Source of the DNA: Bacteroidales bacterium
GTDB lineage: Bacteria > Bacteroidota > Bacteroidia > Bacteroidales > UBA932
Direction of reading: 5' to 3'
NCBI GenBank assembly: GCA_017550525.1
Contig: JAFZOU010000092.1
Coordinates: 17,753 to 81,752 of the forward strand
DNA length: 64,000 nt
In this document: positions 22,394 through 59,636 of the stretch, in pieces
Numbering within the stretch: the first letter of the stretch is position 1
Layout of the letters: the number at the start of each line of letters is the position of its first letter
Notes under the pieces: generated by a model
The model's input: only the letters and a program-made list of their open reading frames with translations
Databases searched by the model: none
Told to the model about the DNA's origin: nothing
Program-made: the position numbers and the translations under genes

Positions 22394-23554
22394 TTACCTG
22401 AACAACCTTGGGGCAAACAGCAGGAGATACTGGCGCCAGTTGCACCAGAGGTGGCCGCGGGAGGATTCGTGGTACTCGTAGGGGAAGCCAAGGGCGTCAA
22501 GTTCCGCGCGGAAATCCGTATTTACATCATAAAGGAAATCTTCCTTGCCGATAGCAATCCAGAACAGGTTGCAGCCCTTCTTCTGATAGGCCCTGAGCTT
22601 TGCCTCACGGTTTGAATAAACGTCAAGTTCCGATGTAAACTGCGGCACCAGACCGGCGGAGAAAAGGCCCGTCCAGGAGAAGAGGTCCGGATGGTTCAGC
22701 GATATATACAGGGAGTGGAATCCGCCCATGGAAAGGCCAGCGACGGCCCTAGACTGGCGGTTACGGACGGTCTTGTATCGGCCATCAATAAAGGAGACTA
22801 TCTCTCCGAATGAGGCCTCATACGTGCCGTTCTTGTAGTTGCTTGGAATCTGGTTGGACATCACGGGGCGGAAGGCAAGGTTGTCCGGAGTCTCTCCCGG
22901 AGCGGCCTGAGCGCCGATATTTCCGTTAGGCATCACCACAATCATAGGAACGGCCTCTCCCTTTGCGATGAGGTTATCCATAATGCGGGCCGTCTTTCCA
23001 AGCTCCAGCCAGGCGTTCTCATCCCCGCCGCTGCCGTGAAGTAGATACAGCACGGGGAACTTCTTCTTGCCGTCATAGGCCGCAGGAAGGTAAACGCTTA
23101 GACGGCGGTCCTTCCCGGTGGCGCCGGACCGGTACCAGATCTGCTCCACATTGCCGTGAGGGACATCCTGAACCTCATAGTAGGAAGCCTTGTCCCCGTC
23201 CACATAGAAATAGCTGAACGTTGTTCCAACATCCCTCAGGGTAAAGGGATTTCCGGGATCAAGGCCGATAAGCCCGTCTACATAGAACCGATAGGTATAG
23301 AGTTCCGATGGAAGCGGAGCCGTAGTGTATTCCCACACGCCGCCTTCCCCCTCCGTAAGGGGCGATATTCCGTTAACCCAGTCCCCTATCACGGTCACAT
23401 TATGAGCCTTTGGGGCATAAAGGCGGAAAGTGACGGATCCATCCGGGTTCACTTCCGGAGACCGCACTGTCTCTGTCTTATGGCCGATATTCTGCTGGGC
23501 AAAAAGGCTTAAGGGCAAAAGCGCCAGAAGAATAAAAAGTACACGTTTCAGCAT
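22394..23554 (-). CDS. CE1-type secreted esterase with N-terminal E-set domain
   Basis: A 386-residue protein with a type I signal peptide (LFAQQ). Residues about 25-120 are an E-set/CBM48-like Ig domain (VTFRLYAPKAHNVTVIGDW, YTYRFYVDG). Residues about 135-386 are an alpha/beta hydrolase of the esterase D/CE1 group: LLHGSGGDENAW, nucleophile Ser275 in GLSMGG, Asp339 in GKEDFLYD and His368 in SSRGHLWCNWR, a complete triad. CE1 members include feruloyl and acetyl-xylan esterases and the mycolyl-transferring antigen 85 proteins, so the acyl group cannot be assigned. It is the last gene of the lacI-GH97-CE1 unit. It converges on the regulator gene with only 1 bp between the two stops. Confidence 0.85.
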   Translation of the reverse strand: MLKRVLFILLALLPLSLFAQQNIGHKTETVRSPEVNPDGSVTFRLYAPKAHNVTVIGDWVNGISPLTEGEGGVWEYTTAPLPSELYTYRFYVDGLIGLDPGNPFTLRDVGTTFSYFYVDGDKASYYEVQDVPHGNVEQIWYRSGATGKDRRLSVYLPAAYDGKKKFPVLYLLHGSGGDENAWLELGKTARIMDNLIAKGEAVPMIVVMPNGNIGAQAAPGETPDNLAFRPVMSNQIPSNYKNGTYEASFGEIVSFIDGRYKTVRNRQSRAVAGLSMGGFHSLYISLNHPDLFSWTGLFSAGLVPQFTSELDVYSNREAKLRAYQKKGCNLFWIAIGKEDFLYDVNTDFRAELDALGFPYEYHESSRGHLWCNWRQYLLLFAPRLFR

Positions 23555-23582
23555 ATTGTATTCAGTTATTAATTTGCAGATG

Positions 23583-25550
23583 TTATTCCTCCGGGGTCAA
23601 TATCATGGCGCAGCCGCCACCGGAAGCAAGGTGGACGGGGAGTTCATCCTTTGCGCCCACATTGAATTCCTCCACTTCCAGAAGGTTAGGGTCTTCTTCG
23701 CAGAGTGGAACGTCCCTGTAGAGGCGCAGTTTCCATTTGCCGTCACCAAGGAATGAAAGGGGGATAGATACCGTACGCTCTTTTGAATTGTTTATACACC
23801 CCAGATACCACTTCTCTCCGTTTTTCCTGGCAACGGCAACGTATTCGCTGACCCGGGCATCTGGCACCACCGTGTCATCCCAACGGGTGGGAATGGACAT
23901 TATGAAATCAAATCCGGGCTGGCCCCTATATGCATCGGGCTCATCACATACCATGCTCAGATAGCTCTCCATAACTATATACATGGCCAGCATATGAGAT
24001 CGTGTACCCGTCACGAAGGGGCGGGTATACCTGACCCGCCATTTGTCCGGAGGCAGTGAGCGGAATCCGCCAAGATGATAATCGGCCGGACCGGCCAAAA
24101 GACGGGTAAAAGGCATCATTATGTCGTGGTCGGGGCCCATCAGACGGGCTGTATCCCATTTGTAGACTTCATAATTCAGTGTGCCCTCACGCGTGAATTC
24201 ATTGGGCCAGGTGCGCCACAGGCCGGAAGGCTTGCTTGCGCCATGGAACTGGATGAATAATCTGTGCTGGGCTGCTTTTCTTAGGATGGTCTCCTGGATA
24301 CGGATCATCTCCTGGTCGTCACGATCCATGAAATCCACCATCATCCCTTTAACGCCCCAGATATTAAACTGGTCAAAAACCCTGTCTATATCCTTGTAGA
24401 GAGCTGCCCAGTTCAGCCAGACATGGATATCCACGCCACGCGAAGCTGCATATCGGCATACAGCAGGAAAATCAAGCACGGAGGCCGGCCTGGTGAGGTC
24501 TGCGTTGGGCCCTGCCAATCCAAAACCGGGGCCGTCATCCGTATACCAGGGCATATCGGCATACCCATAGACCGAGTGGTACTCCAGATTATGGTCGGCC
24601 GCAAAATCAATGTAGTATTTATTGGTCAGGAAGTTATTCCCTCTCTGGAATGTAGTATCCGGCATGGCTGTGTCATTCCACCAGGGAAAAGTTGTCTTGC
24701 CGGGCTTGAGCCAGGAGGTGTCCTCAACCTTACACGGGTCTGCCAGGCTTGTAAGTACAGTACTTTCAATAAGGGCCCCAGGGCGGTCTGCAACCTGAAA
24801 GACGCGCCAGGGAGTACGTCCATGAGCATCAAGGAGTACACTTACACCCGGGATGTCCAGGCGCGGGGAGAGCCGGCTCTTCAGATTTCCGCCGCCACAC
24901 ACAAGATACATTCCTGCATAATCTACAAGGTTTGCCTCCATGATGGCAAGATATCGGCCGGAAGGATACTCCAGAAGTAGCGGCATGTCTATGAGCCTGT
25001 CCTTCTCCAGCGCAGGCAACGGGACGCGAGTATAAGGGCCTTCATGTGTATTTATGAATCCAGGGACAAACAGGGCAGTGGCAAGAGGGGTCCCCGACGG
25101 CCGGATTTCCATGAGCTCATTCCTGATCTGGAGGGTTTCCGTATTGCAGAACTCATAACGGAAAGCAGCGGCGTCGTTGAACACCTTGATGTGGACGTAC
25201 ATGAAAGGCTCTTTGTCGCCTTTTCCATACACGGGCAAAGATGCATAGTTGTACGACTCCCTTACATGGGATTTCTTTCCAACCGGCAGGACATATTCTT
25301 CAACGGCATAGCCTTTTTCTGTTTGGCCGATCTTCCAATGTGAACAGGGAATATCGGCACTGTCAAAACCAAGGGAGGAGTTTTGAACCAATATCTCCCG
25401 TTGATAACTAAGATTATACTGCAGGGTGCCCTCCGATGGAGAAAGAGTAAAAACAAGATGCCTGTCCGGAGATGTCACACGGACGGATGCAGCAGTGGCG
25501 GATAACGCACAGAAAGCCGCTATCAAACAGAGCAGATATCTGATTCTCAT
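23583..25550 (-). CDS. GH97-family secreted alpha-glycosidase
   Basis: A 655-residue protein with a type I signal peptide. The N-terminal beta-sandwich is at about 22-270, the (beta/alpha)8 barrel at about 275-555 and a C-terminal beta domain follows, the GH97 layout. The barrel carries GVKGMMVDFMDRDDQEM with Asp406 in the position of the nucleophile of retaining members, and Glu455 in TREGTLNYE as candidate acid/base. The presence of the VDF aspartate points to the retaining subgroup (alpha-galactosidase or beta-L-arabinopyranosidase-like) rather than the inverting SusB-like alpha-glucosidases. It begins directly after the lacI stop and precedes the CE1 esterase by 28 bp, so the three form an operon. 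It is probably periplasmic. Confidence 0.85.
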   Translation of the reverse strand: MRIRYLLCLIAAFCALSATAASVRVTSPDRHLVFTLSPSEGTLQYNLSYQREILVQNSSLGFDSADIPCSHWKIGQTEKGYAVEEYVLPVGKKSHVRESYNYASLPVYGKGDKEPFMYVHIKVFNDAAAFRYEFCNTETLQIRNELMEIRPSGTPLATALFVPGFINTHEGPYTRVPLPALEKDRLIDMPLLLEYPSGRYLAIMEANLVDYAGMYLVCGGGNLKSRLSPRLDIPGVSVLLDAHGRTPWRVFQVADRPGALIESTVLTSLADPCKVEDTSWLKPGKTTFPWWNDTAMPDTTFQRGNNFLTNKYYIDFAADHNLEYHSVYGYADMPWYTDDGPGFGLAGPNADLTRPASVLDFPAVCRYAASRGVDIHVWLNWAALYKDIDRVFDQFNIWGVKGMMVDFMDRDDQEMIRIQETILRKAAQHRLFIQFHGASKPSGLWRTWPNEFTREGTLNYEVYKWDTARLMGPDHDIMMPFTRLLAGPADYHLGGFRSLPPDKWRVRYTRPFVTGTRSHMLAMYIVMESYLSMVCDEPDAYRGQPGFDFIMSIPTRWDDTVVPDARVSEYVAVARKNGEKWYLGCINNSKERTVSIPLSFLGDGKWKLRLYRDVPLCEEDPNLLEVEEFNVGAKDELPVHLASGGGCAMILTPEE

Positions 25551-26582
25551 TTATTTGTTTTGTTTCTTCCTGGCCGATGATTCCCGGACAATCAGTTTGC
25601 CGGCAACTTCTATCTGCTGCATCATGCCCTGACCTGACTCCAGCATCTCTACCAGAACGTCCACGCTCTTGCGGGCCATTGTTTCAAGGGGCTGTTCAAA
25701 ATAAGTAAGAGGAGCATAGAAGAAATCAAATACGCTGCCTCCGTCAAAGCCCACCAGGGCGAGGTCGTCGGGGATACGTATATCGCTGTCCTTTATATGC
25801 CTGAGGCACTGGATAGTGATGGCATTAGTGGCACAAAGGAGGGCATCGGCCCCGCCTTCCACAATGCTGCGCACCTCTTTGCGGCAATAGCGGGCAGTAT
25901 CTTCCATGGGGACATTGTGGATAGAGATGAAATCCTCACGGCCGGCATCGCGCATAGCCTGACGGTATCCTTCCTCACGGCCGGCAATGTTCACGAGTTC
26001 TCCCTTGTAACCTACCATGGCTATCTGGGAATAACCCTGCTGGATGAGGTGCATGGTGGCATCATATCCAGCCTTGACATTATCCAGAGTGACATAGTTG
26101 GATTTCAGGTCCGGTATATAACGGTCCAGAAGGACAAAGGGAACGTTCCTTTCCGAGAGACACTCTATTGTGTTCCTTGAGCCGTTGCAGGGAACAAGGA
26201 TAAGTCCGTCCACTTCCTTGGCCAGCATCCTCTCCACCTGCTTTTCCATGGTCTGGGCATTTTCGTCGGAACTGGCGAAAAGAGCCATGTATCCCTTCTC
26301 CTCAGTTGCGGATTCAATATGACGGGCTATATCCGCAAAGAACTGATTGGAAATATCGGAGACAATAACCCCTATGGTCTTTGATGATCCGTCACGCAAG
26401 CTTTTTGCCAGTCCATTGGGCTTATAGTTAAGCTCTTTGGCAATTCTCTTTACTTTTTCCGCGACATCCTTATTGACACGATACTGCTGTTGCTTCCCGT
26501 TCAATACAAAGGACACGAGGGATGTTGAAACGCCTGCAGCAGCGGCGACATCCTTCAAAGACACATTATTCTTCCTAATCAT
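25551..26582 (-). CDS. LacI-family transcriptional regulator
   Basis: The start at 26582 (MIRKNNVSLKDVAAAAGVS) puts the ATG just after a -7 element and gives a standard N-terminus; the frame from 26636 adds a non-conserved stretch upstream of the promoter. Of the 343 residues, 7-30 are the LacI helix-turn-helix (VSLKDVAAAAGVSTSLVSFVLN), followed by the hinge (YKPNGLAKSLR) and a periplasmic-binding-protein-like sensor domain from about 63 (TIGVIVSDISNQFFADIARHIE), including LVGFDG near the C-terminus. LacI regulators of this type sense a sugar or sugar phosphate in the cytoplasm. It is the first gene of a unit with GH97 and CE1. It is the only dedicated regulator seen in region B and may bind the shared near-palindromes at 33.6, 44.1 and 49.2 kb. 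Confidence 0.9.
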   Translation of the reverse strand: MIRKNNVSLKDVAAAAGVSTSLVSFVLNGKQQQYRVNKDVAEKVKRIAKELNYKPNGLAKSLRDGSSKTIGVIVSDISNQFFADIARHIESATEEKGYMALFASSDENAQTMEKQVERMLAKEVDGLILVPCNGSRNTIECLSERNVPFVLLDRYIPDLKSNYVTLDNVKAGYDATMHLIQQGYSQIAMVGYKGELVNIAGREEGYRQAMRDAGREDFISIHNVPMEDTARYCRKEVRSIVEGGADALLCATNAITIQCLRHIKDSDIRIPDDLALVGFDGGSVFDFFYAPLTYFEQPLETMARKSVDVLVEMLESGQGMMQQIEVAGKLIVRESSARKKQNK

Positions 26583-26586
26583 GATG

Positions 26587-26619
26587 CAAATATACAAAAT
26601 ATTAGGGAAAACGGCACAA
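26587..26619 (-). promoter_or_regulatory. lacI promoter with near-leaderless start
   Basis: On the minus strand the -7 element TATATTTG (26594-26587) lies 4 bp before the start codon at 26582, and a TTG at 26619-26617 is a possible -33 with a 22-nt spacer. The expected transcript would have almost no 5' leader. Confidence 0.55.
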
Positions 26620-26639
26620 CAGAGTACTCCAGGCACGGT

Positions 26640-29180
26640 CTAACGCCGTTTGGCCGACTGGTTTTTATAAATTTTTCCGTTGATTATGAACTGTTTAACT
26701 TCAATGTTTCCGCTTACAGTTTCAATAAATGGAATACCGTCTTTGAGACCCACGGTTCCGTAACCGGTTGCGGTGGAAAGGAAGGACCGGAAGTTGTCTC
26801 CAACCTTGGAGTTGATATGGAGGGTCTTCTCTACGGCATCATATCTTGCTCCGGTAAGGGCTTCCAGAAGTGCATAACTTGAAAGGGCGCGTCCATACCA
26901 TGATCCGCATTCATATTCATTGAAAGGATTGCGCAGGGTTCCGTCATAACGGTTTCGGCAGGTGCGGACGATATCAAGCCCTTCTTCCACACATCCTTCC
27001 GCTATGAGATGAGCCGCCACCTGATATTCAATGCCGGTCCAGACCTCGTCACTGTAAACGAAGGGAAGGTTGGGTTTATCTCCATACGGCCAGGAACATA
27101 GAAGGAGTCCTCCTTCATTTCCTAGCGCATAACCCGGACGTTGAGGGTTGGAGTGGTCACGTAAGTCGTGCTTGAGATTGTATTTGTAAACGGATAGGAG
27201 ATGACTTCTGACTTTTTCATGGTCAAGAGGTTCTTCAAGACCCGCGAAAGTTGTCAGGAAACATCCAAGGACGCCGTCAGAGATACATCCCTTTCCATAT
27301 TGGTATTTGGGACCTTCTTCAAGGAGTATCTTCTGGGCCTCGGGGCTGTATGTGCTCTGGAAAGACTGGACTTCCATCGGCGAGGGGGCATTCAGGCCCT
27401 CCCACCTTACCTGCTGGTAGAAGTATTCTCCGTTCCACAGCTCTGTTTCCATGAATCTGACACTCTTTTCAAGGAGCTCTTCATAGAAGTTGATCTCCTT
27501 CTTCTTAAGGGCCTTGAGGTCTTTTGCCATCTTTACAAAGCAATTGAGCGCAGATGTGTATATGCTGGTACACATTCCGTCCGGCCCCCAGAACTCAATG
27601 TCGTAAGTATTGTGATGAGGCTCCTCCAGAGCACCCACATGACGTGGATCCCAGGTACGGATACAATAATCCATACTCTGCCTGATCTGGGGAAACATAT
27701 CGGCAATCCACTTATTGTCTCCGCTGATGCGCCACTCGCGGTAAGCCTTTATTATACCGCCCAGCTGGCCGTCAGAGGCAGCATGGAAGTCATGGCGCAG
27801 GGGGCGGATAGGAAGATTAGCGCGGAATGCCTGATGACCTTCCGTGTTCTGGTCAATATAATACTCTGTCTCTCTGAGGGAACGCTCCAGACGGGGGAAG
27901 AGATGGGGCACGGCCTGAGCATAGTTCCACACATGCTCACAGGAGCCGTGGCAACTGCCCCAGTTGTCTCCACTGCCTTCCCAAACCCAGTATTTGCCGT
28001 CGTGCTGACGCATGACAGTGGTGGATTTAAGTATGGTAAGATTGGCACTTACAGCCTCAAGGACTTCCGCTGGCAGGGTACTGTCAAAGAATGTCTCCGA
28101 GAACTTCTGACTTGCATCTTTCAGCCTGTCATAGTTGGCGTCCCAGTATTCAGTCACTTCTTCCAGATTTTTGAAACGGCGGCTGTAATAGGGCTCATAG
28201 CGCTCCGGAAGATCCTTGAAATTGTCGGGATTGTAGCAGGAGCCATAATCCTCGGGGCAATTGGGCTCTGGGCCGATACGATGGAATGAGGTAGGGAAAT
28301 ACCAGGCCATACGGAGCTTGACTGTCTTGCTCTCACCGGGCTTAAGGCTAAGTGGCACATAGAGGGAACCTCCAGGGGCGCCGTCTCCTGTTCCATTGGG
28401 GACTATTTCTCCGCTTGCCGCCTTGTTCCAGGCCATTGTGAGGGGATCAAACCATCCGCCGCGGAACCAGCAGTAGTCACATTCTGTGGAATCATCGTCC
28501 GTGTAGATGGCAAAGCGCCCTTCCCACTCGGGATTCCTGGGGGTAGGATCCTGACGCAGGACAAACCCGTTTTTCATCTCCTCAACGCAGGAAAGAGCCT
28601 CATGCGATGTAAAGACAAAGTTTCTTGTATTGAAAGAGAACACAGCCTCTACGGGCTTGCTAGAACTATTGGTGAAAGTGTACTCAAATCCCGCCACAGG
28701 GAGTCCTGATTCATCCTCATCGTTTGGAATGAAAGGATTCCAGACAGTTATTGAGACCTTAAGCGGAAGATCCTTATCCCAGAGCTCGAGAGTTGCAAAG
28801 GGGAAATGAGGGGTGAATATTCCATTGTCAAAACGCGGGAGCCCCCAGGTGGTACCACCAACTCCCATACCACCCTCCAATCGGCCGAATTTCTTATAGT
28901 CCGGGACGTTGGCCTCAAGGACTTTGGTGCCGTTCTCAAGCCCTTTCACGCAAATGGCCGCAAAGGTGCACGGCTCATGGAAAAGCTGAGGATAATGGCG
29001 GAGCGACATGTTTGATATGGCTCCGGTTCCTTCGAAGCAAAACATTCCTGTGCCGATTCCCCCGACAGGGAAAGCGATATGATCAAGCTCATGACCGGTG
29101 TATGACCCGTTGTAATTGTGTGCCGATATCAACGATGTAGAGACACAGAGAATCAGCAGGGAGGAGAGTAGTTTCTTCAT
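26640..29180 (-). CDS. GH116-family secreted glycoside hydrolase
   Basis: An 846-residue protein with a type I signal peptide (LISA). The N-terminal beta-sandwich at about 30-330 has HIAFPVGGIGTGMFCFEG, the typical opening of GH116/DUF608 proteins. The (alpha/alpha)6 catalytic domain follows, with DPRHVGALEEPHHNTYDIEFWG (the GALE glutamate, Glu519, is the candidate nucleophile) and SDEVWTGIEYQVAAHLIAEG (Asp711 candidate acid/base). Known GH116 enzymes act on beta-glucosides, beta-xylosides or glucosylceramide, so its part in arabinan breakdown is unproven. It is the third gene of a unit with the DUF4185-like chimera and the CotH protein, 19 bp after CotH. It converges towards nothing; the lacI promoter lies in the gap just downstream. 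Confidence 0.85.
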   Translation of the reverse strand: MKKLLSSLLILCVSTSLISAHNYNGSYTGHELDHIAFPVGGIGTGMFCFEGTGAISNMSLRHYPQLFHEPCTFAAICVKGLENGTKVLEANVPDYKKFGRLEGGMGVGGTTWGLPRFDNGIFTPHFPFATLELWDKDLPLKVSITVWNPFIPNDEDESGLPVAGFEYTFTNSSSKPVEAVFSFNTRNFVFTSHEALSCVEEMKNGFVLRQDPTPRNPEWEGRFAIYTDDDSTECDYCWFRGGWFDPLTMAWNKAASGEIVPNGTGDGAPGGSLYVPLSLKPGESKTVKLRMAWYFPTSFHRIGPEPNCPEDYGSCYNPDNFKDLPERYEPYYSRRFKNLEEVTEYWDANYDRLKDASQKFSETFFDSTLPAEVLEAVSANLTILKSTTVMRQHDGKYWVWEGSGDNWGSCHGSCEHVWNYAQAVPHLFPRLERSLRETEYYIDQNTEGHQAFRANLPIRPLRHDFHAASDGQLGGIIKAYREWRISGDNKWIADMFPQIRQSMDYCIRTWDPRHVGALEEPHHNTYDIEFWGPDGMCTSIYTSALNCFVKMAKDLKALKKKEINFYEELLEKSVRFMETELWNGEYFYQQVRWEGLNAPSPMEVQSFQSTYSPEAQKILLEEGPKYQYGKGCISDGVLGCFLTTFAGLEEPLDHEKVRSHLLSVYKYNLKHDLRDHSNPQRPGYALGNEGGLLLCSWPYGDKPNLPFVYSDEVWTGIEYQVAAHLIAEGCVEEGLDIVRTCRNRYDGTLRNPFNEYECGSWYGRALSSYALLEALTGARYDAVEKTLHINSKVGDNFRSFLSTATGYGTVGLKDGIPFIETVSGNIEVKQFIINGKIYKNQSAKRR

Positions 29181-31101: not shown

Positions 31102-31103
31102 AA

Positions 31104-31146
31104 ATATAAAAAGTTGCGCAGACGCGCGTATGCGCCTGCGCAACTT
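31104..31146 (-). terminator. Intrinsic terminator between the DUF4185-like gene and the CotH gene
   Basis: Arms AAGTTGCGCAG (31111-31121) and CTGCGCAACTT (31136-31146) pair perfectly over 11 bp, with an inner GCGC/GCGC pair. On the minus strand the stem is followed by TTTTTATATTT, which ends 2 bp before the CotH start codon at 31101. It lies 12 bp after the stop of the upstream gene. Confidence 0.85.
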
Positions 31147-45294: not shown

Positions 45295-45296
45295 TT

Positions 45297-49221: not shown

Positions 49222-49222
49222 A

Positions 49223-49236
49223 CTAAATTGTTTTAG
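49223..49236. promoter_or_regulatory. Candidate LacI-type operator, site 4
   Basis: CTAAATTGTTTTAG followed by CAAAT; on the minus strand it reads TTTG then CTAAAACAATTTAG, which differs from site 3 at one position. It lies 8 bp upstream of the -33 element of the second susC promoter. Confidence 0.65.
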
Positions 49237-49244
49237 CAAATCAC

Positions 49245-52400: not shown

Positions 52401-52551
52401 GCTTGAGAAACTCCGTTTATTCATCAATGGCAACAACCTTCTTTGCTTCGACGGCCTGAAGGGCATAGTAGACCCCGAGTCCAACCACCTTGGAGCCAGC
52501 ACCTACCCTACCCAGCTGGCGGCTACCATCGGCATTGAAGTAGGATTCTAA
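49450..52551 (+). CDS. SusC-family TonB-dependent transporter (region B, second pair)
   Basis: A 1033-residue protein, signal peptide to about 35 (SVNAQ). Regulatory-like domain at about 38-120 (ITVSGTITDASTGEPSIGAGV), TonB-box-like LEDAVVIGYGTQ, plug at about 130-245 (SGEPGYDGATLLIRGAGTW, SPLVLVDGIERDI, SATAVYGMRGANG), and a barrel ending in TIGIEVGF. It parallels the first region B SusC closely, even in late loops such as FIPGADNTNA and STNN. The long structured leader is a difference. It leads a seven-gene operon that joins import at the outer membrane to inner-membrane transport and sugar phosphorylation, which is unusual compactness for such loci. Confidence 0.95.
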   Translation: MSIKTQIRGVSIGSLVLFSLLALAMLALPLSVNAQGKKSITVSGTITDASTGEPSIGAGVMLKASNVGTITDLDGTYLIKVNDSKGILVISAIGYKTREIRIDGRSTIDVALEPDMESLEDAVVIGYGTQKKATVTGALTVVNTEIVGKATTPTLANALGGTVPGIISRQRSGEPGYDGATLLIRGAGTWLNSSPLVLVDGIERDINLINTDEIESFSILKDASATAVYGMRGANGVILINTKKGTAGKPRVSFRSESSLLHGLRFPNYIKGWEFATLMNEACETGGVALPWSDEEIELFRDGSDPYNYPSVDWTDAVLKKNAFQTINTVSVSGGNEIVRYYVSAGFSSESGLFKEDPAYKYRTNSLSQRYNFRTNVDVNVTKNFTLTLGLAEIVENRTYPGTPAGDIFWSLKVVNPITYPIRNPDGSFGSSNTSYEKNSPYVLTTNNGFSKQFRSTTQGTFGAKWDLGTLITPGLVIEGNFAYDHYYSVEATRRKQPELKKYLGPDPITGEDRYNVIQEEGTMGYYLAYNVSNRSYYADARINYDRVFNGHGVSALLMANLRDYSDLTAGNSTAQLPYRRQGFAGRLAYNYRQRYLFEVNAGYNGSENFAPGHRYGFFPAVSAGWVPSEEKWWNVSFIDHLKIRGSYGTVGNDALNAQRFFYMSTINKNAAGYTFSYDQSNGIGGVAESRMGSPLASWEVSNKADVGLDLEMFDRKLRLSGDYFYEHRTNILLERGSVPRTIGLASNQLALSNIGIMDNTGFDANIEFTNTTSYGLYYQIRGNVTYAHNTVIEDDTAQSLWSYQNTRGKSIGIPLGYIALGLFQSQEEIDNSPKQELGTYTVGDIKYKDVNNDGVINPYDRVFIGYAREPEIMYGFGFTVAWKGFDVSANFTGAANASILLDAAGMWPFQLDYPGYNVYREYYDNRFIPGADNTNALYPVVHNGTSTNNYQINTLYLHDSSFLKLKTAEVGYSFPRKITSRIGLEKLRLFINGNNLLCFDGLKGIVDPESNHLGASTYPTQLAATIGIEVGF

Positions 52552-52568: not shown

Positions 52569-54425
52569 ATGAAAAAGATATTATACATTTTCTCAGCAAC
52601 CGCAGTGATCCTTGCTTGCGCTTCATCATGCGAGAAATTCCTGGACATGTCACCGGATGAGAACCTCACAATTGACGACGTTTTCTCCAACCGCCTGCAA
52701 ACCAGGGCCTTCCTTGCAAATACATATTCTTATCTTCCTTTCCATGCCGATATGGCGTGGGACAACAACTTCACCGGAGCATGCGATGAGATGGAAATCG
52801 CTTTCGGCGGCCACGTCACCCATGCCATGAGCAGTGGCGCATGGGCCCCCATTGACGACTTCGCCGCACACATCTGGAATACCATGTACGAAGCAATCCG
52901 TAAGGCCAACATGGTCATAGAAAACGTAGACAGATGCTCGGAGGCTACGGCCGATGAAATAAGGTGGATGAAAGGTGAAGCCTATTTCCTCAGGGCATTC
53001 TATCATTTTATGATATTCCGCGCTTACGGCCCCATCCCCATTATTGATCATGTTCTTGATATCAATGAAGATATAGCCTCCATAACCAGGGCTCCTGCAG
53101 ACAATGTTGCCAAATTCATATCCGATGACTGCGACATAGCGGCCGAATATCTGATTGACAAGGACTCCTGGGCTTCTGAAGACCAGGCCAGGGCTACCAG
53201 GATTGCTGCGCTTGCCCTCAAGAGCAGAGTCCTGCTGTATATCGCCTCCCCTCTGTACAACGGCAACCCTGACTTTGCAGAGCTCAAGGATCTTGTTACT
53301 GGAGAAAACCTTATTTCCCAGACATATGACCCCGAGAAATGGAAAGCCGCGGCAGATGCGGCAAAGGAGTGCATAGACGCCGCCGAGGCTGCCGGGCATG
53401 GCCTCTATGACAAGGATCTGCCCGCAGACCCTGTGAAAAACTACCAGAACATCTTCAATGACAACTGGAACAAGGAAGTATTATGGGGCCGTAACAACGG
53501 CGCTACAGATCACTGGCTAAACTGTAGCGACCCTACATCCTTTGGCTGCTATTCCATTTTTGACCCCACACAGGAAATGGTTGACGCCTATGAGATGGAA
53601 GATGGCTCCACACCCATAACGGGCTACACCAACAATGGTCTCACTCCTATTATCAATCCCGCTTCAGGATATGTAGAAGCCGGATTCTCCACAGATTCCA
53701 AGGCCGGCAGGTGGGAAGTGGGCGTATCCAATATGTACACCCACAGAGAACCCCGTTTCTATGCCTCCATCAACTTTGCCGGCGGAATATGGAAAACTTC
53801 CCGCGCCAGCAACTGGACGGCTCCACACGTCAACGAATTCTGGTTCACCGGAATTGACGGCAAGAATAACGCCGGATCAGACTACTGCAAGACGGGATAT
53901 CTGATGAAAAAATTCCATTATCCCACGCATATTCCCTGGCAGTATACTCCTAATCAGGTTTGGGTTTATATCCGTCTGGGTGAGATTTATCTGAACTACG
54001 CAGAGGCCCTCAACGAGTATTCCGGTCCTTCAACAACAGTGTATGACTATGTGAATGCCATCCGCACACGCGCAGGCCTTCCCGGCCTTGATGCCGGTCT
54101 TGACAAGGACAAGATGCGTGAGAGGATTCATCATGAGCGCAGGATTGAACTGGCATTTGAAGTTCATCGCTGGTTTGATGTACGCCGATGGAAGACCGTA
54201 GACGGCGAAGGCGGCCCCATCCACTCCATGAACATCTGGGAAGGCACATCTCAGCAGGATCCCGCCTTCTACAAGAGGATATTCGTAGAGAACCGCGTGT
54301 TTGAATCCCCCAAGCACTATTTCTTCCCTATACCCCAGTCTGAGGTTGACAAAAACAATAAACACCTCCTTCTGCAGAATCCAGGTTGGACAACAGTCAC
54401 TGCCGGAGACGGAGGAACTGAGTGA
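52569..54425 (+). CDS. SusD/RagB-family glycan-binding lipoprotein (region B, second pair)
   Basis: A 618-residue lipoprotein, signal ending in CASSC (Cys21) then EKFLDMSPDENL. SusD elements: AIRKANMVIENV, WMKGEAYFLRAFYHFMIFRAYGP, YIRLGEIYLNYAEALNEY, RIHHERRIELAFEVHRWFDVRRW. It is clearly paralogous to the first region B SusD: CDEMEIAFGGH against CDEMECAFGGA, and a shared ASPLYNGN plus VTGENLISQTYDPEKWK core. It lies 17 bp after susC, with an AAAGGAGG ribosome-binding site in the gap, and 13 bp before the kinase gene. Loops near the likely binding site differ from the paralogue, so the two pairs may take different oligosaccharides of one polymer. Confidence 0.93.
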   Translation: MKKILYIFSATAVILACASSCEKFLDMSPDENLTIDDVFSNRLQTRAFLANTYSYLPFHADMAWDNNFTGACDEMEIAFGGHVTHAMSSGAWAPIDDFAAHIWNTMYEAIRKANMVIENVDRCSEATADEIRWMKGEAYFLRAFYHFMIFRAYGPIPIIDHVLDINEDIASITRAPADNVAKFISDDCDIAAEYLIDKDSWASEDQARATRIAALALKSRVLLYIASPLYNGNPDFAELKDLVTGENLISQTYDPEKWKAAADAAKECIDAAEAAGHGLYDKDLPADPVKNYQNIFNDNWNKEVLWGRNNGATDHWLNCSDPTSFGCYSIFDPTQEMVDAYEMEDGSTPITGYTNNGLTPIINPASGYVEAGFSTDSKAGRWEVGVSNMYTHREPRFYASINFAGGIWKTSRASNWTAPHVNEFWFTGIDGKNNAGSDYCKTGYLMKKFHYPTHIPWQYTPNQVWVYIRLGEIYLNYAEALNEYSGPSTTVYDYVNAIRTRAGLPGLDAGLDKDKMRERIHHERRIELAFEVHRWFDVRRWKTVDGEGGPIHSMNIWEGTSQQDPAFYKRIFVENRVFESPKHYFFPIPQSEVDKNNKHLLLQNPGWTTVTAGDGGTE

Positions 54426-54438: not shown

Positions 54439-55419
54439 ATGAACAAGAAACCCAAAATACTGGTCGTCGGCAGCTTCATCATGGACCTTGTTGCCACGGC
54501 TGACAGGGTGCCCAATATGGGCGAGACCGTAATTGGCAACTCATTTAAGACTGCTCCCGGAGGCAAAGGAGCCAACCAGGCTGTACAGGCTGCAAGGCTG
54601 GGAGTTGAAACCCATATGGCAGGCTGTGTCGGAGACGACATGTACGGACAGGTTATGCTTCAGGCCCTGAATTCTTCCGGAGTGGATACTCGGCACGTAA
54701 AGATAAGCCATGAGCATCCATCGGGCGTGGGACATATACGCATCCAGACTGGAGAGTCAGGAGTTCAAAACAGCATCATAGTGGTTCCCGGGGCCAATTT
54801 TGACCTTAAACCTGAAGACCTTGGATGGCTTAAGGATGAGATAGGCGGCTATGACATGGTGATAATGCAGCTTGAACTGGAAATGCCCACCATTGAATAC
54901 GTTGCCCGCGTTGCCAAGGACGCAGGCGTTCCGGTCATGCTGAACACTGCCCCGGCAGCTCCACTATCGGCCCAATTACTATCCTGCGTCACTTTCATCT
55001 CTCCCAACGAGACAGAGGCATCGCTCCTGTCCGGCGTAAAGACAGACGGGCAGGGAAGACTCTCTGAGGAGGCGCTGAAGGAAGCAGCATCAATCCTTAT
55101 GGGCAAGGGCGTTCCCAATGTAATCATCACCCTTGGCGACGAAGGTGCAGCCTTATGCATGCCTGAAAGCCTGATTCATGTCCCCTGTGTAAAGATGACC
55201 GATGTAAAGGACCCCACAGCCGCCGGAGACTCCTTTGTTGGAGCTTTCTGCGCAGGATATGTGTGCGGCCTTTCAATTGACAAGGCCATCTTGCTGGCAG
55301 TGCACACTGCTGCAATAACGGTCTGCGGCTTTGGAGCCATACCTTCACTTCCCACAATGGCGCAGGTCAAGGAGCTGCTTGAAGAACGCGGATGTAATCA
55401 ATTGCTAAACTTATTATAA
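54439..55419 (+). CDS. Ribokinase-type PfkB-family sugar kinase, candidate D-arabinose 5-kinase
   Basis: The start at 54439 (MNKKPKILVVGSFIMDLV) is the conserved ribokinase N-terminus; the frame from 54301 lies inside susD. The 326-residue protein has no signal and is cytoplasmic. Ribokinase signatures: GSFIMDL, the sugar-binding GGKGANQ at about 41-47, and DPTAAGDSFVGAF with catalytic Asp264. Ribokinases phosphorylate the 5-OH of D-ribose and some accept D-arabinose. Because the next gene (sharing one base) looks like an arabinose-5-phosphate isomerase and no ribose genes are present, I infer that the substrate is D-arabinose and the product D-arabinose 5-phosphate. D-ribose is the alternative. 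Its position in a susCD operon ties it to the imported glycan. Confidence 0.85.
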   Translation: MNKKPKILVVGSFIMDLVATADRVPNMGETVIGNSFKTAPGGKGANQAVQAARLGVETHMAGCVGDDMYGQVMLQALNSSGVDTRHVKISHEHPSGVGHIRIQTGESGVQNSIIVVPGANFDLKPEDLGWLKDEIGGYDMVIMQLELEMPTIEYVARVAKDAGVPVMLNTAPAAPLSAQLLSCVTFISPNETEASLLSGVKTDGQGRLSEEALKEAASILMGKGVPNVIITLGDEGAALCMPESLIHVPCVKMTDVKDPTAAGDSFVGAFCAGYVCGLSIDKAILLAVHTAAITVCGFGAIPSLPTMAQVKELLEERGCNQLLNLL

Positions 55420-56021
55420 TGATACAGGAAAAGAGCATTAAGGCTACGGAGACCTTCCTCCGTAAGGCAAAGGCAAGTACGGCTGCGTACATAGACGGTT
55501 TCAATCTGGATTCCTGCTGCAAGGCGGCCGATATAATCCTGGATTCCCAGGCCCGGGGCGGAAGGATACATGTGACAGGTATCGGGAAGCCCGCCCATGT
55601 GGCGGCGTATGTGGCTTCCCTGCTGGCATCTACCGGCAACCCGGCCTGTTTTCTCCACGGCACCGAAGCCGTCCACGGATCCTGCGGGCAGCTTGTGGAA
55701 GGAGACGTTGTGATAGCCATTTCCAATTCCGGAGAGACCGCTGAGCTGAAGGCCACAGTAAACGCCATCCATGCCAACGGATGCAAGGTGATAGCTGTAA
55801 CCGGAAATCCCAACAGCTGGCTTTCTGAGCATTCAGAAAGCACCATTCTTGCAGGTGTTGATGAAGAAGGCGGCCCGCTGGGCCGTGCACCCCGCAATTC
55901 CGTGAACGCGGAAATGATAGCCCTCCAGGCACTGAGCGTCCTCCTTCAGGTAGAGAAGGACTGGGACAAGGAAAAATACCACAGATGCCATCCCGGAGGC
56001 AAGTTGGGAGAGATGAAATGA
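55419..56021 (+). CDS. SIS-domain protein, candidate catabolic D-arabinose-5-phosphate isomerase
   Basis: A 200-residue cytoplasmic protein whose start overlaps the kinase stop by 1 bp (TAATG). It is a single SIS domain of the KdsD/KpsF/GutQ type: GRIHVTGIGKPAHVAAYVA, LASTGNPACFLHGTEAVHG, VVIAISNSGETAEL, PLGRAPRNS, CHPGGKLGEM. The four active-site residues of E. coli KdsD (Lys59, Glu111, Glu152, His193) have counterparts at Lys57, Glu106, Glu150 and His191. The two CBS domains of KdsD are absent; CBS-free isomerases are known. KdsD interconverts D-ribulose 5-phosphate and D-arabinose 5-phosphate, normally for KDO synthesis. Here no KDO gene is near, so I infer the reverse, catabolic direction, feeding the pentose phosphate pathway. 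Confidence 0.85.
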   Translation: MIQEKSIKATETFLRKAKASTAAYIDGFNLDSCCKAADIILDSQARGGRIHVTGIGKPAHVAAYVASLLASTGNPACFLHGTEAVHGSCGQLVEGDVVIAISNSGETAELKATVNAIHANGCKVIAVTGNPNSWLSEHSESTILAGVDEEGGPLGRAPRNSVNAEMIALQALSVLLQVEKDWDKEKYHRCHPGGKLGEMK

Positions 56022-56033: not shown

Positions 56034-57248
56034 ATGAAAAAGGTATTTAAAATTATTGCCCTAGGAGCTGCGCTATGCTGCTTCGCCGGCTGTAACAACA
56101 ATGATTACAAGATGGGTACTTATGGTTATGACGTCGCCTACTTTGCCAAGCACGGCATAGGCATCGTGGAGCTCGTGGACGGTCAATCCAAAGTGATGGT
56201 CATTCCTGCATGGCAGGGTCGCATCCAGACTTCCACCACAGACGGAAATGAAGGCACAAGCTACGGTTGGACCAACTACCGCTTCATTGATGCCGGCAAG
56301 GTCAGCCCCCAGTTCAATCCATTCGGCGGGGAGGAACGTTTCTGGATCGGCCCGGAAGGAGGGCCTTTTTCCTGGTATTTCCGGAAGGGAGAGGAACAGG
56401 TCTATGAAAACTGGAAAGTTCCCTCCTATATAGACACAGATCCCTATGACATCCTGGAGCAAACCCAAAGCAAGGTTGTCCTCTCAAAGGACTTTGATGC
56501 CGTTAATGCTTCAGACAACTGTTTCCGCATCGGAGTTCTCCGCACCGTGTCCCTTGTAGATGCCTCAGAGCTCAAAGACCTCCTTGGAGTAGACATTCCC
56601 AAGGAACTGAAATCCCTGGCCTACAAGACTGAGAACACTCTTACCAACAAGGGTGAATCGGCCTGGACCAAAGAGACGGGTATGCCTTCCGTGTGGCTGC
56701 TTGGCTCTTTTAATCCCACCCCCACAACAACAGTGTTCATCCCCTGCAATCCGGACTTCCAAGGCAGGAAAATAAACGATGAGTATTTTGGCAAGGTTCC
56801 CTCAGAACGTCTGGTCTACGAAGATGGAATGTTCTATTTCAAGATTGACGGAGAATACCGGTCCAAGATCGGCCTTCCTTCGGGAAGCGCCAAGGACATA
56901 TGCGGCAGCTACGACTCCGCCCAGGGCGTTCTGAATATCCTGAAATATAGCGTTCCCGAAGGCGATGTAGATTATGTAAACGGCCAGTGGGGCCACCAGG
57001 ACAATCCTTTTGGCGGTGATGTAATCAATTCCTACAACGACGGTCCCACCGAGACAGGATTCGTCCAGGGCCCTTTCTATGAGATAGAAACGTCCTCACC
57101 CGGTGCCGCCCTGGTCCCCGGAGAGAGCCTCACCCACGTCCAGTATACCATCCACATCCAGGGAGATCCCGCCCTGCTTTCCTCAATAGTTGAGCAAGTC
57201 TTTGGAGTAAGCCTGGACAAGATAGCAAGTGTTTTTTCATCAAAATAG
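56034..57248 (+). CDS. DUF6786-like lipoprotein
   Basis: A 404-residue lipoprotein, signal ending in CFAGC (Cys20), 12 bp after the isomerase gene. The sequence is beta-rich: YFAKHGIGIVELVDGQSKVMV, PAWQGRIQTSTTDG, GWTNYRFIDAG, ERFWIGPEGGPFSWYF, TGMPSVWLLGSFNP. Together these resemble DUF6786 proteins, and the fold is reminiscent of galactose-mutarotase or DUF4380-type sandwiches. A role as an extracytoplasmic aldose-1-epimerase-like or sugar-binding protein is possible, because it sits between the isomerase and the sugar symporter genes. No catalytic His/Glu pair can be named with confidence. The family assignment is from memory of motifs. Confidence 0.5.
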   Translation: MKKVFKIIALGAALCCFAGCNNNDYKMGTYGYDVAYFAKHGIGIVELVDGQSKVMVIPAWQGRIQTSTTDGNEGTSYGWTNYRFIDAGKVSPQFNPFGGEERFWIGPEGGPFSWYFRKGEEQVYENWKVPSYIDTDPYDILEQTQSKVVLSKDFDAVNASDNCFRIGVLRTVSLVDASELKDLLGVDIPKELKSLAYKTENTLTNKGESAWTKETGMPSVWLLGSFNPTPTTTVFIPCNPDFQGRKINDEYFGKVPSERLVYEDGMFYFKIDGEYRSKIGLPSGSAKDICGSYDSAQGVLNILKYSVPEGDVDYVNGQWGHQDNPFGGDVINSYNDGPTETGFVQGPFYEIETSSPGAALVPGESLTHVQYTIHIQGDPALLSSIVEQVFGVSLDKIASVFSSK

Positions 57249-57254: not shown

Positions 57255-58688
57255 ATGGCAGAAAAATCAAGACTTGTTCCTAAAGGCATAGTCTGGCCTT
57301 TTATCCTCCTGACCTGCCTGTTCTTCGCATGGGCTGTCCCCAACAACCTCACGGACACCATGCTTGCCGCCTTCAAGCGGATAATGAGCCTGTCCGACTC
57401 AAAGACAGCCTGGATTCAGGTTGTATGCTACCTGCTGGGATATGGATGCTTCGCAATCCCGGGTGCCATATTCATCAAGAGATATTCATACAAGTCTGGC
57501 GTAATGCTGGGACTTGCACTGTATTCCCTGGGCACTTTCCTGTTCTTTCCTGCTTCCAGGGTGGCTGTAGCAAACAATACCGTGGGCTACATGATGTTCC
57601 TGTTTGCCATACTGGTGCTGTTTGCAGGTCTATCCATCCTTGAGACGGCAACCAACTCTTATGTTCTTGCCCTCGGCCCTGCTGAAACTGCCACTCGCCG
57701 CCTCAACTTCGCCCAGTCTTTCAATCCTTTCGGGGCCATTACCGGAGTCGTAATATCCCAGATATTCATCCTATCACAGCTCAACACACTCACAGCATCG
57801 GCCAGAGCCCAGCTCAGTGAAAGTGAACTGGCCTCCATCCAGATGGGAGAACTGAATGCCGTAACCACTACATACATCATCCTTGGCGTTGTTATGCTGG
57901 CCATTCTCCTGGCCATCTACCTGACCAAGATGCCAAACCTAAAGGAGGAGAGCGGCCCCATGAACCTTAAGGGTTCAGGTAAACGCCTTATCAAGAACAA
58001 GAATTATGTATGGGGCGTGGTGGCTCAGTTCTTTGACATTGGCGCACAGATAGCCGTGTGGTCATATACCATACGCTACGCCATGCAGAACCTGCATTTT
58101 GACGATGTAATCTCTTCACTCGGCCCCGGCGCTTCCACAGAACAGATCATTGGAGCCCTTCGCGGAGTGGAGCCCATTGCGGCCGGGTTCTATAACATCT
58201 GTGACGCCGTTGGGCTGGATGTCCTTCTGCCCCGTACGGCCGAACAAGCCGGCGCAACATATTACATCATGTCACTGGTTCTCTTTGTGATAATGCGCTT
58301 CGTCTGCACATGGCTTATGAAATGGGTGAGCCCCCGCCGTCTGCTCTCTATCATGGCCGGTCTGGGAGTTGCCTTCTGCCTTGGTACAGTGCTTGGTAAC
58401 GGCTTCTTTGGAGTGTACTGCCTCATGTGCATCAGCGGCTGCCTCTCCCTCATGTTCCCCACCATCTACGGTCTGGGTTGCGAGGGCCTTGGTGAAGACA
58501 CCAAGCTTGGAGGATCAGGCATGGTCATGGCCATTGCCGGTGCAAGCGTGCTCACACAGATTGAAGGTATTCTGTCCGACCAATCCGGCAGTATCGCCCT
58601 GGCCTATATAGTCCCGGCAATCGCTTTCGCAGTTATATTCTACTATGCCGCCGTCTTCTGCCGCAAGCAAGAAAAGCTCAGAGTATAA
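57255..58688 (+). CDS. FucP-type MFS sugar/proton symporter, candidate D-arabinose importer
   Basis: A 477-residue inner-membrane protein with about 12 hydrophobic helices. The first reads WPFILLTCLFFAWAVPNNLTD. FucP of E. coli needs Asp46 (NLND) and Glu135 (ETAANP); the counterparts here are Asp34 in NNLTD and Glu130 in LETATN, so the proton/sugar-coupling residues are kept. A hydrophilic insert at about 275-325 between two helices is longer than in FucP. FucP carries L-fucose and also D-arabinose and L-galactose, which share the same ring stereochemistry. No fucose isomerase, kinase or aldolase gene is present, but a pentose kinase and isomerase are. I therefore infer D-arabinose as the natural cargo. 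Confidence 0.88.
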   Translation: MAEKSRLVPKGIVWPFILLTCLFFAWAVPNNLTDTMLAAFKRIMSLSDSKTAWIQVVCYLLGYGCFAIPGAIFIKRYSYKSGVMLGLALYSLGTFLFFPASRVAVANNTVGYMMFLFAILVLFAGLSILETATNSYVLALGPAETATRRLNFAQSFNPFGAITGVVISQIFILSQLNTLTASARAQLSESELASIQMGELNAVTTTYIILGVVMLAILLAIYLTKMPNLKEESGPMNLKGSGKRLIKNKNYVWGVVAQFFDIGAQIAVWSYTIRYAMQNLHFDDVISSLGPGASTEQIIGALRGVEPIAAGFYNICDAVGLDVLLPRTAEQAGATYYIMSLVLFVIMRFVCTWLMKWVSPRRLLSIMAGLGVAFCLGTVLGNGFFGVYCLMCISGCLSLMFPTIYGLGCEGLGEDTKLGGSGMVMAIAGASVLTQIEGILSDQSGSIALAYIVPAIAFAVIFYYAAVFCRKQEKLRV

Positions 58689-58691
58689 TCA

Positions 58692-59636
58692 TTGCGAAAA
58701 CTATCAATAATACTTCTGTTACTCCCGCTGGCTGCCATGGTAGTCAGCGGGCAGCCTTTGGGGCAGATGAATCTGGCCGATCCTTTCATTTATCTGGAAG
58801 GGGACACCTATTATGCCTTTGGAACCGAATCCAACGATGGTTTTCGCTGTTACCGCTCGGAAGACCTTGAGCACTGGGTGCAGGTAAAAGGGAAAGCCAA
58901 ATCCGGGTTTGTACTGCACCGTGAAGACTCTTCTGGAAGCAAAGGATTCTGGGCCCCGGAAGTGTATTTCCTGGATGGCCGATACTTCATGCTATATACG
59001 GCCGATGAGAAGCCATGCATAGCCGTTGCCGATGATATATCCGGCCCGTTCAGGCCTTATGGCCATGGCATCATGACAGAGGACCCGAACGGCATAGACA
59101 ACACTCTTTTCATAGACAAGGACGGCTCTGTGTACATGTACTGGGTCCGATGGGGGCTTGGCAGGGGAAACGAGATCCGGGGTGCAAGACTATCTCACAA
59201 AATGCAGTCTGTGGGAAAGCAGGTACGATGTATCTGGGCCGCGGAACCCTGGGAACTTATCTTTGGCCGCGTTACGGAAGCCCCTACGGTCATGCGGATA
59301 GGAGACACGTACTACATGACTTATTCTGCCAACGACTTCAGGAGTCAGGATTATGCCGTAGGACTTGCCACAGCATCCTCTCCGCTGGGTCCCTGGACCA
59401 AATACGGTGGAAATCCAATCATGAGAAAGCCGGGAGAGCTATACGGCACCGGCCATAGCAGTGTCTTCCGGAACAAGGAAGGAAAGCTCATGATGGTCTT
59501 CCACGCCCATGCATCGGCATCATCAATTGGGCCGCGGCGAATGTATATCACATCGCTTGAGGAAGTGATAGAAGACGGACAATTGATACTTAAACCCAGC
59601 TCCGAATACCTCACACCGCACTTGTATTCAAGGTAA
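58692..59636 (+). CDS. GH43-family secreted glycoside hydrolase with TTG start
   Basis: A 314-residue protein with a type I signal peptide (VVSGQ). The start is TTG at 58692, 3 bp after the symporter stop; no ATG near it would keep the signal peptide. It is a single propeller domain with the GH43 acidic trio: Asp30 in LADPFIY, Asp136 in GIDNTLF and Glu196 in VTEAPTVM. The compact form without accessory domains suggests a periplasmic exo-enzyme. It shares only the family with the lipoprotein GH43 at 41059. Arabinofuranosidase, galactofuranosidase or xylosidase activity are all possible. It is the last gene of the operon and ends just before a bidirectional terminator. Confidence 0.85.
   Translation: MRKLSIILLLLPLAAMVVSGQPLGQMNLADPFIYLEGDTYYAFGTESNDGFRCYRSEDLEHWVQVKGKAKSGFVLHREDSSGSKGFWAPEVYFLDGRYFMLYTADEKPCIAVADDISGPFRPYGHGIMTEDPNGIDNTLFIDKDGSVYMYWVRWGLGRGNEIRGARLSHKMQSVGKQVRCIWAAEPWELIFGRVTEAPTVMRIGDTYYMTYSANDFRSQDYAVGLATASSPLGPWTKYGGNPIMRKPGELYGTGHSSVFRNKEGKLMMVFHAHASASSIGPRRMYITSLEEVIEDGQLILKPSSEYLTPHLYSR

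Follow-up and report, generated by a model that had tools for sequence, protein, structure and literature searches.

Which glycan does the gene cluster at positions 22394–59636 serve, and how is the sugar that it releases catabolized? The cluster lies in a 64,000-nucleotide stretch of a Bacteroidales genome (GCA_017550525.1, contig JAFZOU010000092.1), hereafter the window, on a contig of 81,752 bases (C106) in an assembly of 2.38 Mb that is 91% complete. Its gene content makes it highly likely that this is a D-arabinan utilization locus that also encodes a dedicated module for D-arabinose catabolism, in which the sugar would be phosphorylated first and isomerized second. The walls of mycobacteria and related bacteria are held together by D-arabinan, a sugar polymer whose cleaving enzymes were placed in families only in 2023.

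In the proposed pathway, two surface lipoproteins of glycoside hydrolase (GH) family GH183 would cut D-arabinan internally, and SusC2/SusD2 would take up the fragments. In the periplasm, GH172 would remove α-D-arabinofuranosyl (D-Araf) units and GH116 the β-D-Araf end units. FucP would then move D-arabinose into the cell. There, a ribokinase-like kinase would phosphorylate it to D-arabinose 5-phosphate, from which a KdsD-like isomerase lacking CBS domains would produce D-ribulose 5-phosphate for entry into the pentose phosphate pathway. The operons are probably controlled together by a LacI-type repressor through a palindrome that they share. We also consider it likely that this is a dedicated natural route from D-arabinose via D-arabinose 5-phosphate to D-ribulose 5-phosphate. 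It would use a ribokinase homologue adapted to D-arabinose and a CBS-less KdsD homologue, an isomerase of lipopolysaccharide (LPS) precursor synthesis turned catabolic, and would serve as a plug-in for D-arabinan loci and for candidate loci scavenging 3-deoxy-D-manno-octulosonate (Kdo), replacing FucI and an FGGY kinase. Among the literature matches listed, titles and opening parts of abstracts described no natural kinase-first D-arabinose route; subscription journals were mostly outside this coverage.

Pfam searches recovered each family named by an earlier sequence-only reading at its position, including five DUF2961/DUF4185 genes within 18 kb (31159–49221). The locus also holds two SusC/SusD pairs, two GH43, GH2, GH116, GH97, and an esterase with CBM48 (PF00756, CE1-like). 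It thus contains a SusCD pair, GH172, and GH183 in one cluster, the combination that marks a D-arabinan polysaccharide utilization locus (PUL) of Bacteroidota. The kinase, the SIS isomerase, FucP, LacI, DUF6786, CotH, and a 363-residue protein (unk363) had gone without mention in that reading. At E ≤ 1e-50, DUF4185 was found in 4 of 393 sampled genomes of the order, the genome under study included, and in this genome alone among 395 sampled from the phylum; this rarity indicates that the content of the locus goes beyond chance. Related loci (L numbers) and genomes (G numbers) were compared with the window. L005, an independent contig of the metagenome-assembled genome (MAG) Tb.RUG.384, matched positions 36348–57801 with 97.7% identity over 21.5 kb, and the compared part is therefore not an assembly artefact. 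L006 (MAG RUG722) was ~99% identical over 16.4 kb, two pieces being at 92% and 96%. The stretches missing from L006 correspond almost precisely to the second GH183 gene (window 47805–49216) and to most of the last GH43 gene (58904–59550), and L006 has an extra GH2 gene (815 residues) adjoining the long GH172 gene.

Both full GH183 proteins exceeded the PF13810 cut-off of 39.5 bits (298.8 bits at 46358 and 286.1 bits at 47797), and the former matched EndoMA1 (8hhv) with E 4e-57. The acidic residues reported as essential in EndoMA1 (PMC10509167), its nucleophile Asp, acid/base Asp, and third Glu (D33, D51, and E243 in EndoMA1), are kept in both proteins. All three were also kept in 20 of 20 GH183 rows of the alignment. 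The GH172 protein at 44134 matched the exo-α-D-arabinofuranosidase ExoMA1 (8ic8) with E 2.9e-111 (375 bits), compared with 156 bits for the difructose-dianhydride enzyme 7v1v and 124 bits for the Dysgonomonas gadei enzyme 8ah3; nearness to D-Araf or fructosyl enzymes was judged by the PDB search scores of this protein. Both catalytic Glu motifs are kept in both GH172 proteins (38833 and 44134). The earlier statement that the catalytic motifs are intact is therefore correct for the two full GH183 and the two GH172 proteins, but fails for the third DUF4185 protein (31159). GH116 matched ExoMA2 (8ic6) with E 2.3e-115, whereas β-glucosidases reached only 2.4e-7. It keeps the counterparts of E431 and D557 (nucleophile and acid/base) and of H446 and R483, which recognize D-Araf; PMC10509167, from which these roles are taken, describes the His and Arg as the key difference of ExoMA2 from β-glucosidase. 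This matching uses an offset of 4, which we infer, between the chain numbering and that of PMC10509167. The N-termini of the GH183 proteins were lipoprotein-like, and those of GH172 at 44134 and GH116 resembled ordinary signal peptides, as judged by a simple motif scan rather than a trained predictor.

These matches make D-arabinan the best-supported substrate. The sequence-only reading had proposed it, and the proposal gains further ground from the GH116 residues, the ExoMA1-like GH172, and the D-arabinose catabolic genes. It is very improbable that the locus targets another furanoside, such as fructan, difructose anhydride, or plant L-arabinan. The GH172 family does include the α-fructofuranosidase 7v1v, the GH43 protein at 41059 is closest to endo-1,5-α-L-arabinanases (1wl7), and a GH127-bearing locus adjoins at 568–22392; yet GH172, GH183, and GH116 occur here together, with D-Araf-type best matches or residues, and a SIS protein of the D-arabinose 5-phosphate isomerase type misfits the catabolism of L-arabinose or fructose. 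Clustering with fructan-active proteins, which the earlier reading had named as a result that would count against it, was checked as a score comparison, and fructan was rejected as substrate on the GH172 scores (375 versus 156 bits). Actinobacterial cell walls, suggested in that reading, may be the food source; D-Araf is also reported from the pili of Pseudomonas aeruginosa PA7 and from a few LPS (PMC10115798). The suggestion that GH43 and GH2 remove galactofuran found no positive evidence in the searches. The second GH43 protein (58692) is closest to 3kst, and GH2 matched β-glucuronidase and galactosidase models far under their cut-offs.

The kinase and the isomerase are encoded back to back: the kinase stop shares one base with the isomerase start, on the same strand as SusC2-SusD2 and FucP. 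The kinase start was placed from the sequence at the in-frame ATG 54439; a longer frame overlaps susD. FucP scored above the TIGR00885 cut-off (410.9 versus 280.4 bits). The FucP of Escherichia coli also carries D-arabinose.

The locus kinase shares with RbsK the PfkB fold, the AAGD motif with the catalytic Asp, and the sugar contacts D16, G42, K43, N46, and E143. Against the ribokinase equivalog TIGR02152 it scored 287.6–288 bits, under the cut-off of 299.65, whereas a separate, typical ribokinase of the same genome (contig C107) scored 363 bits. We aligned 11 isomerase-paired kinases, after dropping duplicates from overlapping loci, with K-12 RbsK and 17 ribokinases of the order. The latter were all that remained of 18 matches with E ≤ 1e-60 in 149 genomes once the locus kinase itself was set aside. 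All 11 paired kinases had Gly at position 98, whereas each of the 18 ribokinases had Ala there; position 14 was hydrophobic (Ile, Met, or Val) in the former and Asn in the latter, again with no exception. The catalytic Asp was kept throughout, except in one ribokinase that is truncated there. Since the paired kinases form one clade (support 100/100), Gly98 counts as one evolutionary change, retained in all. E. coli ribokinase is poor on D-arabinose, and its A98G variant has a 15-fold higher kcat and a 1.5-fold lower KM (PMC9604405). Human ribokinase has been used to produce D-arabinose 5-phosphate from D-arabinose (PMC11591822).

The isomerase consists of 200 residues and lacks, by Pfam, the CBS domain pair of full-length KdsD. 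Its best NCBIfam match was TIGR00393, with 125 bits against a cut-off of 203.7 and coverage of positions 1–151 of 268. PDB matches (5uqi, 3etn, and 2xhz) placed this SIS-family protein in the KpsF/GutQ/KdsD group, for which the PDB also holds KpsF-like chains of ~200 residues. Its TGIGK, ETAEL, EEGGP, and HPGG motifs aligned with those of 12 long copies from the order; we take the Lys, the two Glu, and the His in them to be the KdsD-type active-site residues. Literature searches on the KdsD active site turned up no paper. Some match to the protein was present in 354 of 393 genomes of the order. Among the matches listed, the five best outside its own genome were 37–41% identical and came from frames of 322–341 residues, the size of full-length enzymes. 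The protein thus shares the SIS fold, the signature residues, and this level of identity with KdsD/KpsF/GutQ, but differs in lacking CBS domains, in being coupled to a kinase, in standing in a genome where KdsA was not found, and in its predicted catabolic direction.

Could this isomerase serve Kdo synthesis instead? It was the only KpsF-type gene found in its own assembly, and no KdsA above cut-off was found there. Two weak KdsA matches proved to be parts of one 366-residue frame, which was taken for a relative of 3-deoxy-D-arabino-heptulosonate 7-phosphate synthase. The lack of a KdsA hit makes a role in Kdo synthesis unlikely, and a housekeeping isomerase was rejected on these two grounds. 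Across 200 genus genomes, the SIS part was detected at E ≤ 1e-20 in 11, of which 8 (this genome included) had a match of the locus type and 2 a distant one; the remaining genome, G371, has a full-length KpsF whose contig also carries KdsA. The weaker matches, among those listed, covered the CBS part or other pieces. KdsA exceeded its cut-off in 1 of 41 genus genomes, with G423 intermediate (121 bits, cut-off 314). Full-length KpsF exceeded its cut-off in 1 of 200. This Bacteroidales genus may mostly make no Kdo.

FucI and FGGY kinase were both searched for, and neither was found, in the window, L005–L009, L072–L075, L123, and L124. At the whole-genome level, FucI was absent from the search results of the window's own assembly and of all nine other genomes bearing the kinase-isomerase pair (two of them, the genome of L005 and G509, being near-identical to the window at the locus), and present in the four remaining genomes (G278, G750, G370, and Bacteroides oleiciplenus). 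These results bear on a quite unlikely alternative, that D-arabinan is degraded here but D-arabinose is excreted or burned isomerase-first, with the kinase an ordinary ribokinase and the isomerase acting on Kdo or another sugar. Precedent for it exists: in D. gadei grown on D-arabinan, fucose isomerase is described as the most abundant carbohydrate-active enzyme, and the supernatant of cultures on arabinogalactan as containing free arabinose (PMC10115798); three related loci also carry FucI and FGGY kinase in or beside the locus. The FucI results given above argue against an isomerase-first route, the absence of KdsA above cut-off against a Kdo use of the isomerase, and the separate, higher-scoring ribokinase together with a position 98 unlike that of all 18 aligned ribokinases against an ordinary ribokinase.

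The distribution of the catabolic genes among relatives is consistent with exchange of one module for another. FucP and DUF6786 accompany GH172/GH183 in the window and in L005, L006, L008/L074–75, L009/L072–73, L011/L076, L014, L081, L125, and L145; DUF6786 adjoins FucP in related loci that show both, and the L007 stretch ends in DUF6786. The kinase-isomerase pair is present in four types of D-arabinan locus (the window type, L007/L123, L008/L074, and L009/L072), where it occupies two different positions. In UBA7258 (L011/L076), FucI stands between SusD2 and DUF6786, where the window has the pair. FucI also occurs in the loci of G750 (L126) and B. oleiciplenus (L145), and each of these three FucI-bearing loci has an FGGY kinase in or beside it. 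In L010 and L014 (both MAG RGIG3455) and L081, the catabolic genes were not seen in the stretch examined. GH183 also occurred where FucP, FucI, and the pair were all missing from the stretch examined, in L013, L078, L079/L080, L082 (where only a 38-bit kinase match appeared), L084, and L085, and G856 and G582 of the order (L127–L130) showed the same pattern; GH183 alone is therefore no marker of the locus type. A second kind of GH183 locus, represented in the genus by L078, L079/L080, and L082, combines different SusCD genes with several diverged GH183 copies and a hybrid two-component system (HTCS) regulator.

The pair has a second genomic context. In G421, G510, G405, and G361, it lies near LacI, a lyase of the dihydrodipicolinate synthase (DHDPS) family, and an SSF symporter, adjacent to them in the first three (the G405 contig has 5.4 kb) and within ~20 kb in G361. 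The coordinates are L116:9632–13608, L117:2865–6820, and L119:108–4063, with L144 and L118 for G361. In G421 and G361, the loci additionally encode a BNR protein resembling sialidases, as well as SusCD and DUF5017; for G421 the match to BNR is weak (26.9 bits, under the cut-off of 31.4). These are candidate Kdo-scavenging loci, in which the lyase step would again yield D-arabinose. N-acetylneuraminate lyase-type enzymes are able to condense D-arabinose with pyruvate, giving Kdo, at ~1% of the rate with N-acetylmannosamine (PMC4016182); literature searches on Kdo aldolases and Kdo hydrolases yielded this chemistry only. It is conceivable, though unlikely, that the pair evolved for Kdo scavenging, with a Kdo lyase releasing D-arabinose and pyruvate, and entered D-arabinan loci later. 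This account, for which the four genomes and the lyase chemistry speak, concerns the origin of the pair and is compatible with a kinase-first D-arabinan locus. Against it, the best solved match of the lyase, 4xky, is filed as dihydrodipicolinate synthase, and no Kdo hydrolase was identified; the pair is present in four D-arabinan locus types and two positions, so that it may have spread in either direction.

Several points weigh against the kinase-first locus proposed here. The GH43 protein at 41059, with its resemblance to L-arabinanase, would be unneeded in a pure D-arabinan locus. FucI or KdsA could sit in the part missing from the 91% complete assembly. G370 has FucI as well as the pair, which is located elsewhere than the D-arabinan locus of that genome, and in four genomes the pair lies apart from every GH183 locus seen. 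Gly98 may be a single ancestral change, and among the 11 paired kinases those of the window, L005, and L006 are nearly the same. By itself, Gly98 is not enough for a good D-arabinose kinase, as the KM of the A98G variant is still 310 mM (PMC9604405). Finally, the equilibrium of E. coli isomerases favors D-arabinose 5-phosphate, with Keq ~0.5 (PMC11591822), so catabolic flux would need a downstream pull. The G370 pair is a more distant one, at L142:7824–9473, away from all glycan loci seen and beside glutamine and glutamate synthase genes, and its isomerase is 64% identical to that of the window.

Three known or related systems resemble the proposed D-arabinan locus. D. gadei PUL42, compared here by its description, likewise combines GH172 with two GH183 in a Bacteroidota PUL, with endo- and exo-D-arabinofuranosidase activity shown there (PMC10115798), and has a putative GH116 (PMC10509167); it differs in encoding fucose isomerase, whereas no FucI was found for the window genome, which has the kinase-isomerase pair instead. 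The locus of G750 (L125/L126) resembles this description. The GH183, GH172, and GH116 proteins of the window find their best matches among solved structures in enzymes of the Microbacterium arabinogalactanolyticum D-arabinan cluster, but this cluster is actinobacterial, has an ABC transporter, and its exo-enzymes are without signal sequence; it is also described as having a "putative isomerase and kinase" (PMC10509167). The FucI and FGGY loci of UBA7258, G750, and B. oleiciplenus share GH172, GH183, FucP, DUF6786, and LacI with the window, whereas D-arabinose is predicted there to be isomerized first and phosphorylated second.

A common regulator is suggested by a palindrome, TTGCTAAA-N4-TTTAGCAA. 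With at most 3 mismatches, it occurred at three sites in the 64 kb (33560, 44057, and 49220), all in promoter regions, the last overlapping the end of a GH183 gene by two bases. The expected count was 0.15, and 3 sites were reached in 0 of 100 shuffles, a test that is partly circular because the pattern was derived from the window's own intergenic regions. Relatives provide a better check. Sites lie before GH172 and before SusC2 in L123, L074/L075, and L072, and before GH172, SusC2, LacI, and the FGGY kinase in UBA7258. At the same stringency, no site was found in L010, L012, L073, L081, L084, L116, L118, L125, L126, L142, L144, or L146. LacI genes recur in related loci, and the CG center of several palindrome copies fits LacI-family operators. 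The palindrome is probably the LacI operator preceding the main operons.

The third DUF4185 protein (31159) matched PF13810 with E 4.1e-26 over profile positions 54–263 of 309 only. In the alignment it has Gly at the nucleophile, Asp at the acid/base, and Thr at the Glu position, so that two of the three catalytic acids are lost, and a catalytic role was judged unlikely. Among eight such degenerate proteins, whose alignment is uncertain in the N-terminal part, none keeps all three acids: Asp stands in the nucleophile column in 2, Asp in the acid/base column in 3, and the Glu is kept in 5. The 31159 protein is probably a surface glycan-binding lipoprotein and not an enzyme. Its gene adjoins CotH, as it does in 5 of 7 relatives with that gene whole (L010, L021, L075, L081, and L084, but not L073 and L076).

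For unk363, translation from a further in-frame ATG (45297) would agree better with the signal peptide than translation from 45270. Searches returned no Pfam match and no convincing PDB relative, with either the single sequence or a profile. A GH127-like identity was considered and dropped: the weak PDB match (E 0.45) was gone in the profile search, and the underlying YWCC motif is not conserved. The protein is 72–98% identical in five relatives and also encoded in the loci of G750 and B. oleiciplenus; it was not seen in UBA7258, L014, or L081. It thus stands beside GH172/GH183 in three lineages, i.e., its own genus, G750, and B. oleiciplenus, and is a candidate new D-arabinan-active protein.

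Strand and spacing suggest the following operons. A close-packed run on the minus strand comprises the degenerate DUF4185 lipoprotein, CotH, GH116, LacI, GH97, and the esterase. On the plus strand lie SusC1-SusD1, GH43-GH2, GH172-unk363-GH183-GH183, and SusC2-SusD2-kinase-isomerase-DUF6786-FucP-GH43. The long GH172 gene stands alone on the minus strand at 38833, and a GC-rich, terminator-like hairpin with a T run (38807–38832) separates it from the convergent SusD1 gene. The right boundary is a terminator-like hairpin preceding rplQ. The best NCBIfam match of GH97 was a retaining α-galactosidase (414.7 bits, below the cut-off of 800). The separate neighboring locus (568–22392) encodes SusC, SusD, a SusE-like protein, BACON, GH127, and an HTCS regulator, together with a protein with weak, sub-cut-off GH116/rhamnosidase matches. 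The description of the host as a gut-type bacterium fits, as near-identical contigs bear RUG isolate names and relatives from goats were obtained from the rumen, omasum, and abomasum; from this we infer a rumen organism.

Table. Coordinates of the D-arabinan locus and its features in the window, with the basis of each assignment.
Feature	Position	Strand	Basis or remark
D-arabinan locus	22394–59636	both	left end, convergent HTCS (two-component-type) regulator gene
Secreted CBM48 esterase, CE1-like	22394–23554	-	PF00756 E 4.6e-27, PF02922; last gene of minus-strand run
GH97	23583–25550	-	PF10566 E 3.1e-84
LacI-family regulator	25551–26636	-	PF00356/PF13377; probable locus regulator
GH116, predicted periplasmic exo-β-D-arabinofuranosidase	26640–29180	-	PDB 8ic6 (ExoMA2)
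CotH-domain protein	29200–31143	-	PF08757 E 7.1e-46
Lipoprotein, degenerate C-terminal DUF4185 domain	31159–33456	-	PF13810 partial; lipobox Cys19
Operator-like palindrome, divergent promoter region	33560–33579	.	1 mismatch
SusC 1	33786–36854	+	TIGR04056
SusD 1	36873–38798	+	PF07980
GH172 long form, 715 residues	38833–40980	-	PF11175 E 1.6e-56
GH43, endo-arabinanase-like	41059–42150	+	PF04616; 1wl7 E 7.6e-29
GH2	42170–44014	+	profile searches
Operator-like palindrome preceding GH172 operon	44057–44076	.	2 mismatches; kept in relatives
GH172, predicted periplasmic exo-α-D-arabinofuranosidase	44134–45294	+	DUF2961 E 1.2e-96; PDB 8ic8
unk363, secreted protein, no Pfam family	45270–46361	+	conserved beside GH172/GH183 in relatives
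GH183 lipoprotein, predicted surface endo-D-arabinanase	46358–47800	+	PF13810 E 5.6e-89
GH183 lipoprotein, predicted surface endo-D-arabinanase	47797–49221	+	PF13810 E 4.3e-85
Operator-like palindrome preceding SusC 2 operon	49220–49239	.	3 mismatches
SusC 2	49450–52551	+	TIGR04056
SusD 2	52569–54425	+	PF07980
Ribokinase-like kinase, predicted D-arabinose 5-kinase	54439–55419	+	PF00294 E 1.9e-65
KdsD/KpsF-like SIS isomerase without CBS, predicted catabolic	55419–56021	+	profile and PDB matches
DUF6786 lipoprotein	56034–57248	+	PF20583 E 2.5e-146
FucP-type H+ symporter, predicted D-arabinose importer	57255–58688	+	TIGR00885 410.9 bits
GH43	58692–59636	+	PF04616; 3kst E 2.4e-58

The locus kinase naturally carries the substitution that was engineered into E. 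coli ribokinase for higher activity on D-arabinose, and is thereby a potential catalyst for the synthesis of arabinosides. The locus as a whole is a source of further candidate D-arabinan enzymes and associated proteins, including unk363 and the probable surface binding protein derived from GH183. For the organism itself, the catabolic genes suggest a way of using D-arabinose that differs from that of the known D-arabinan eaters.

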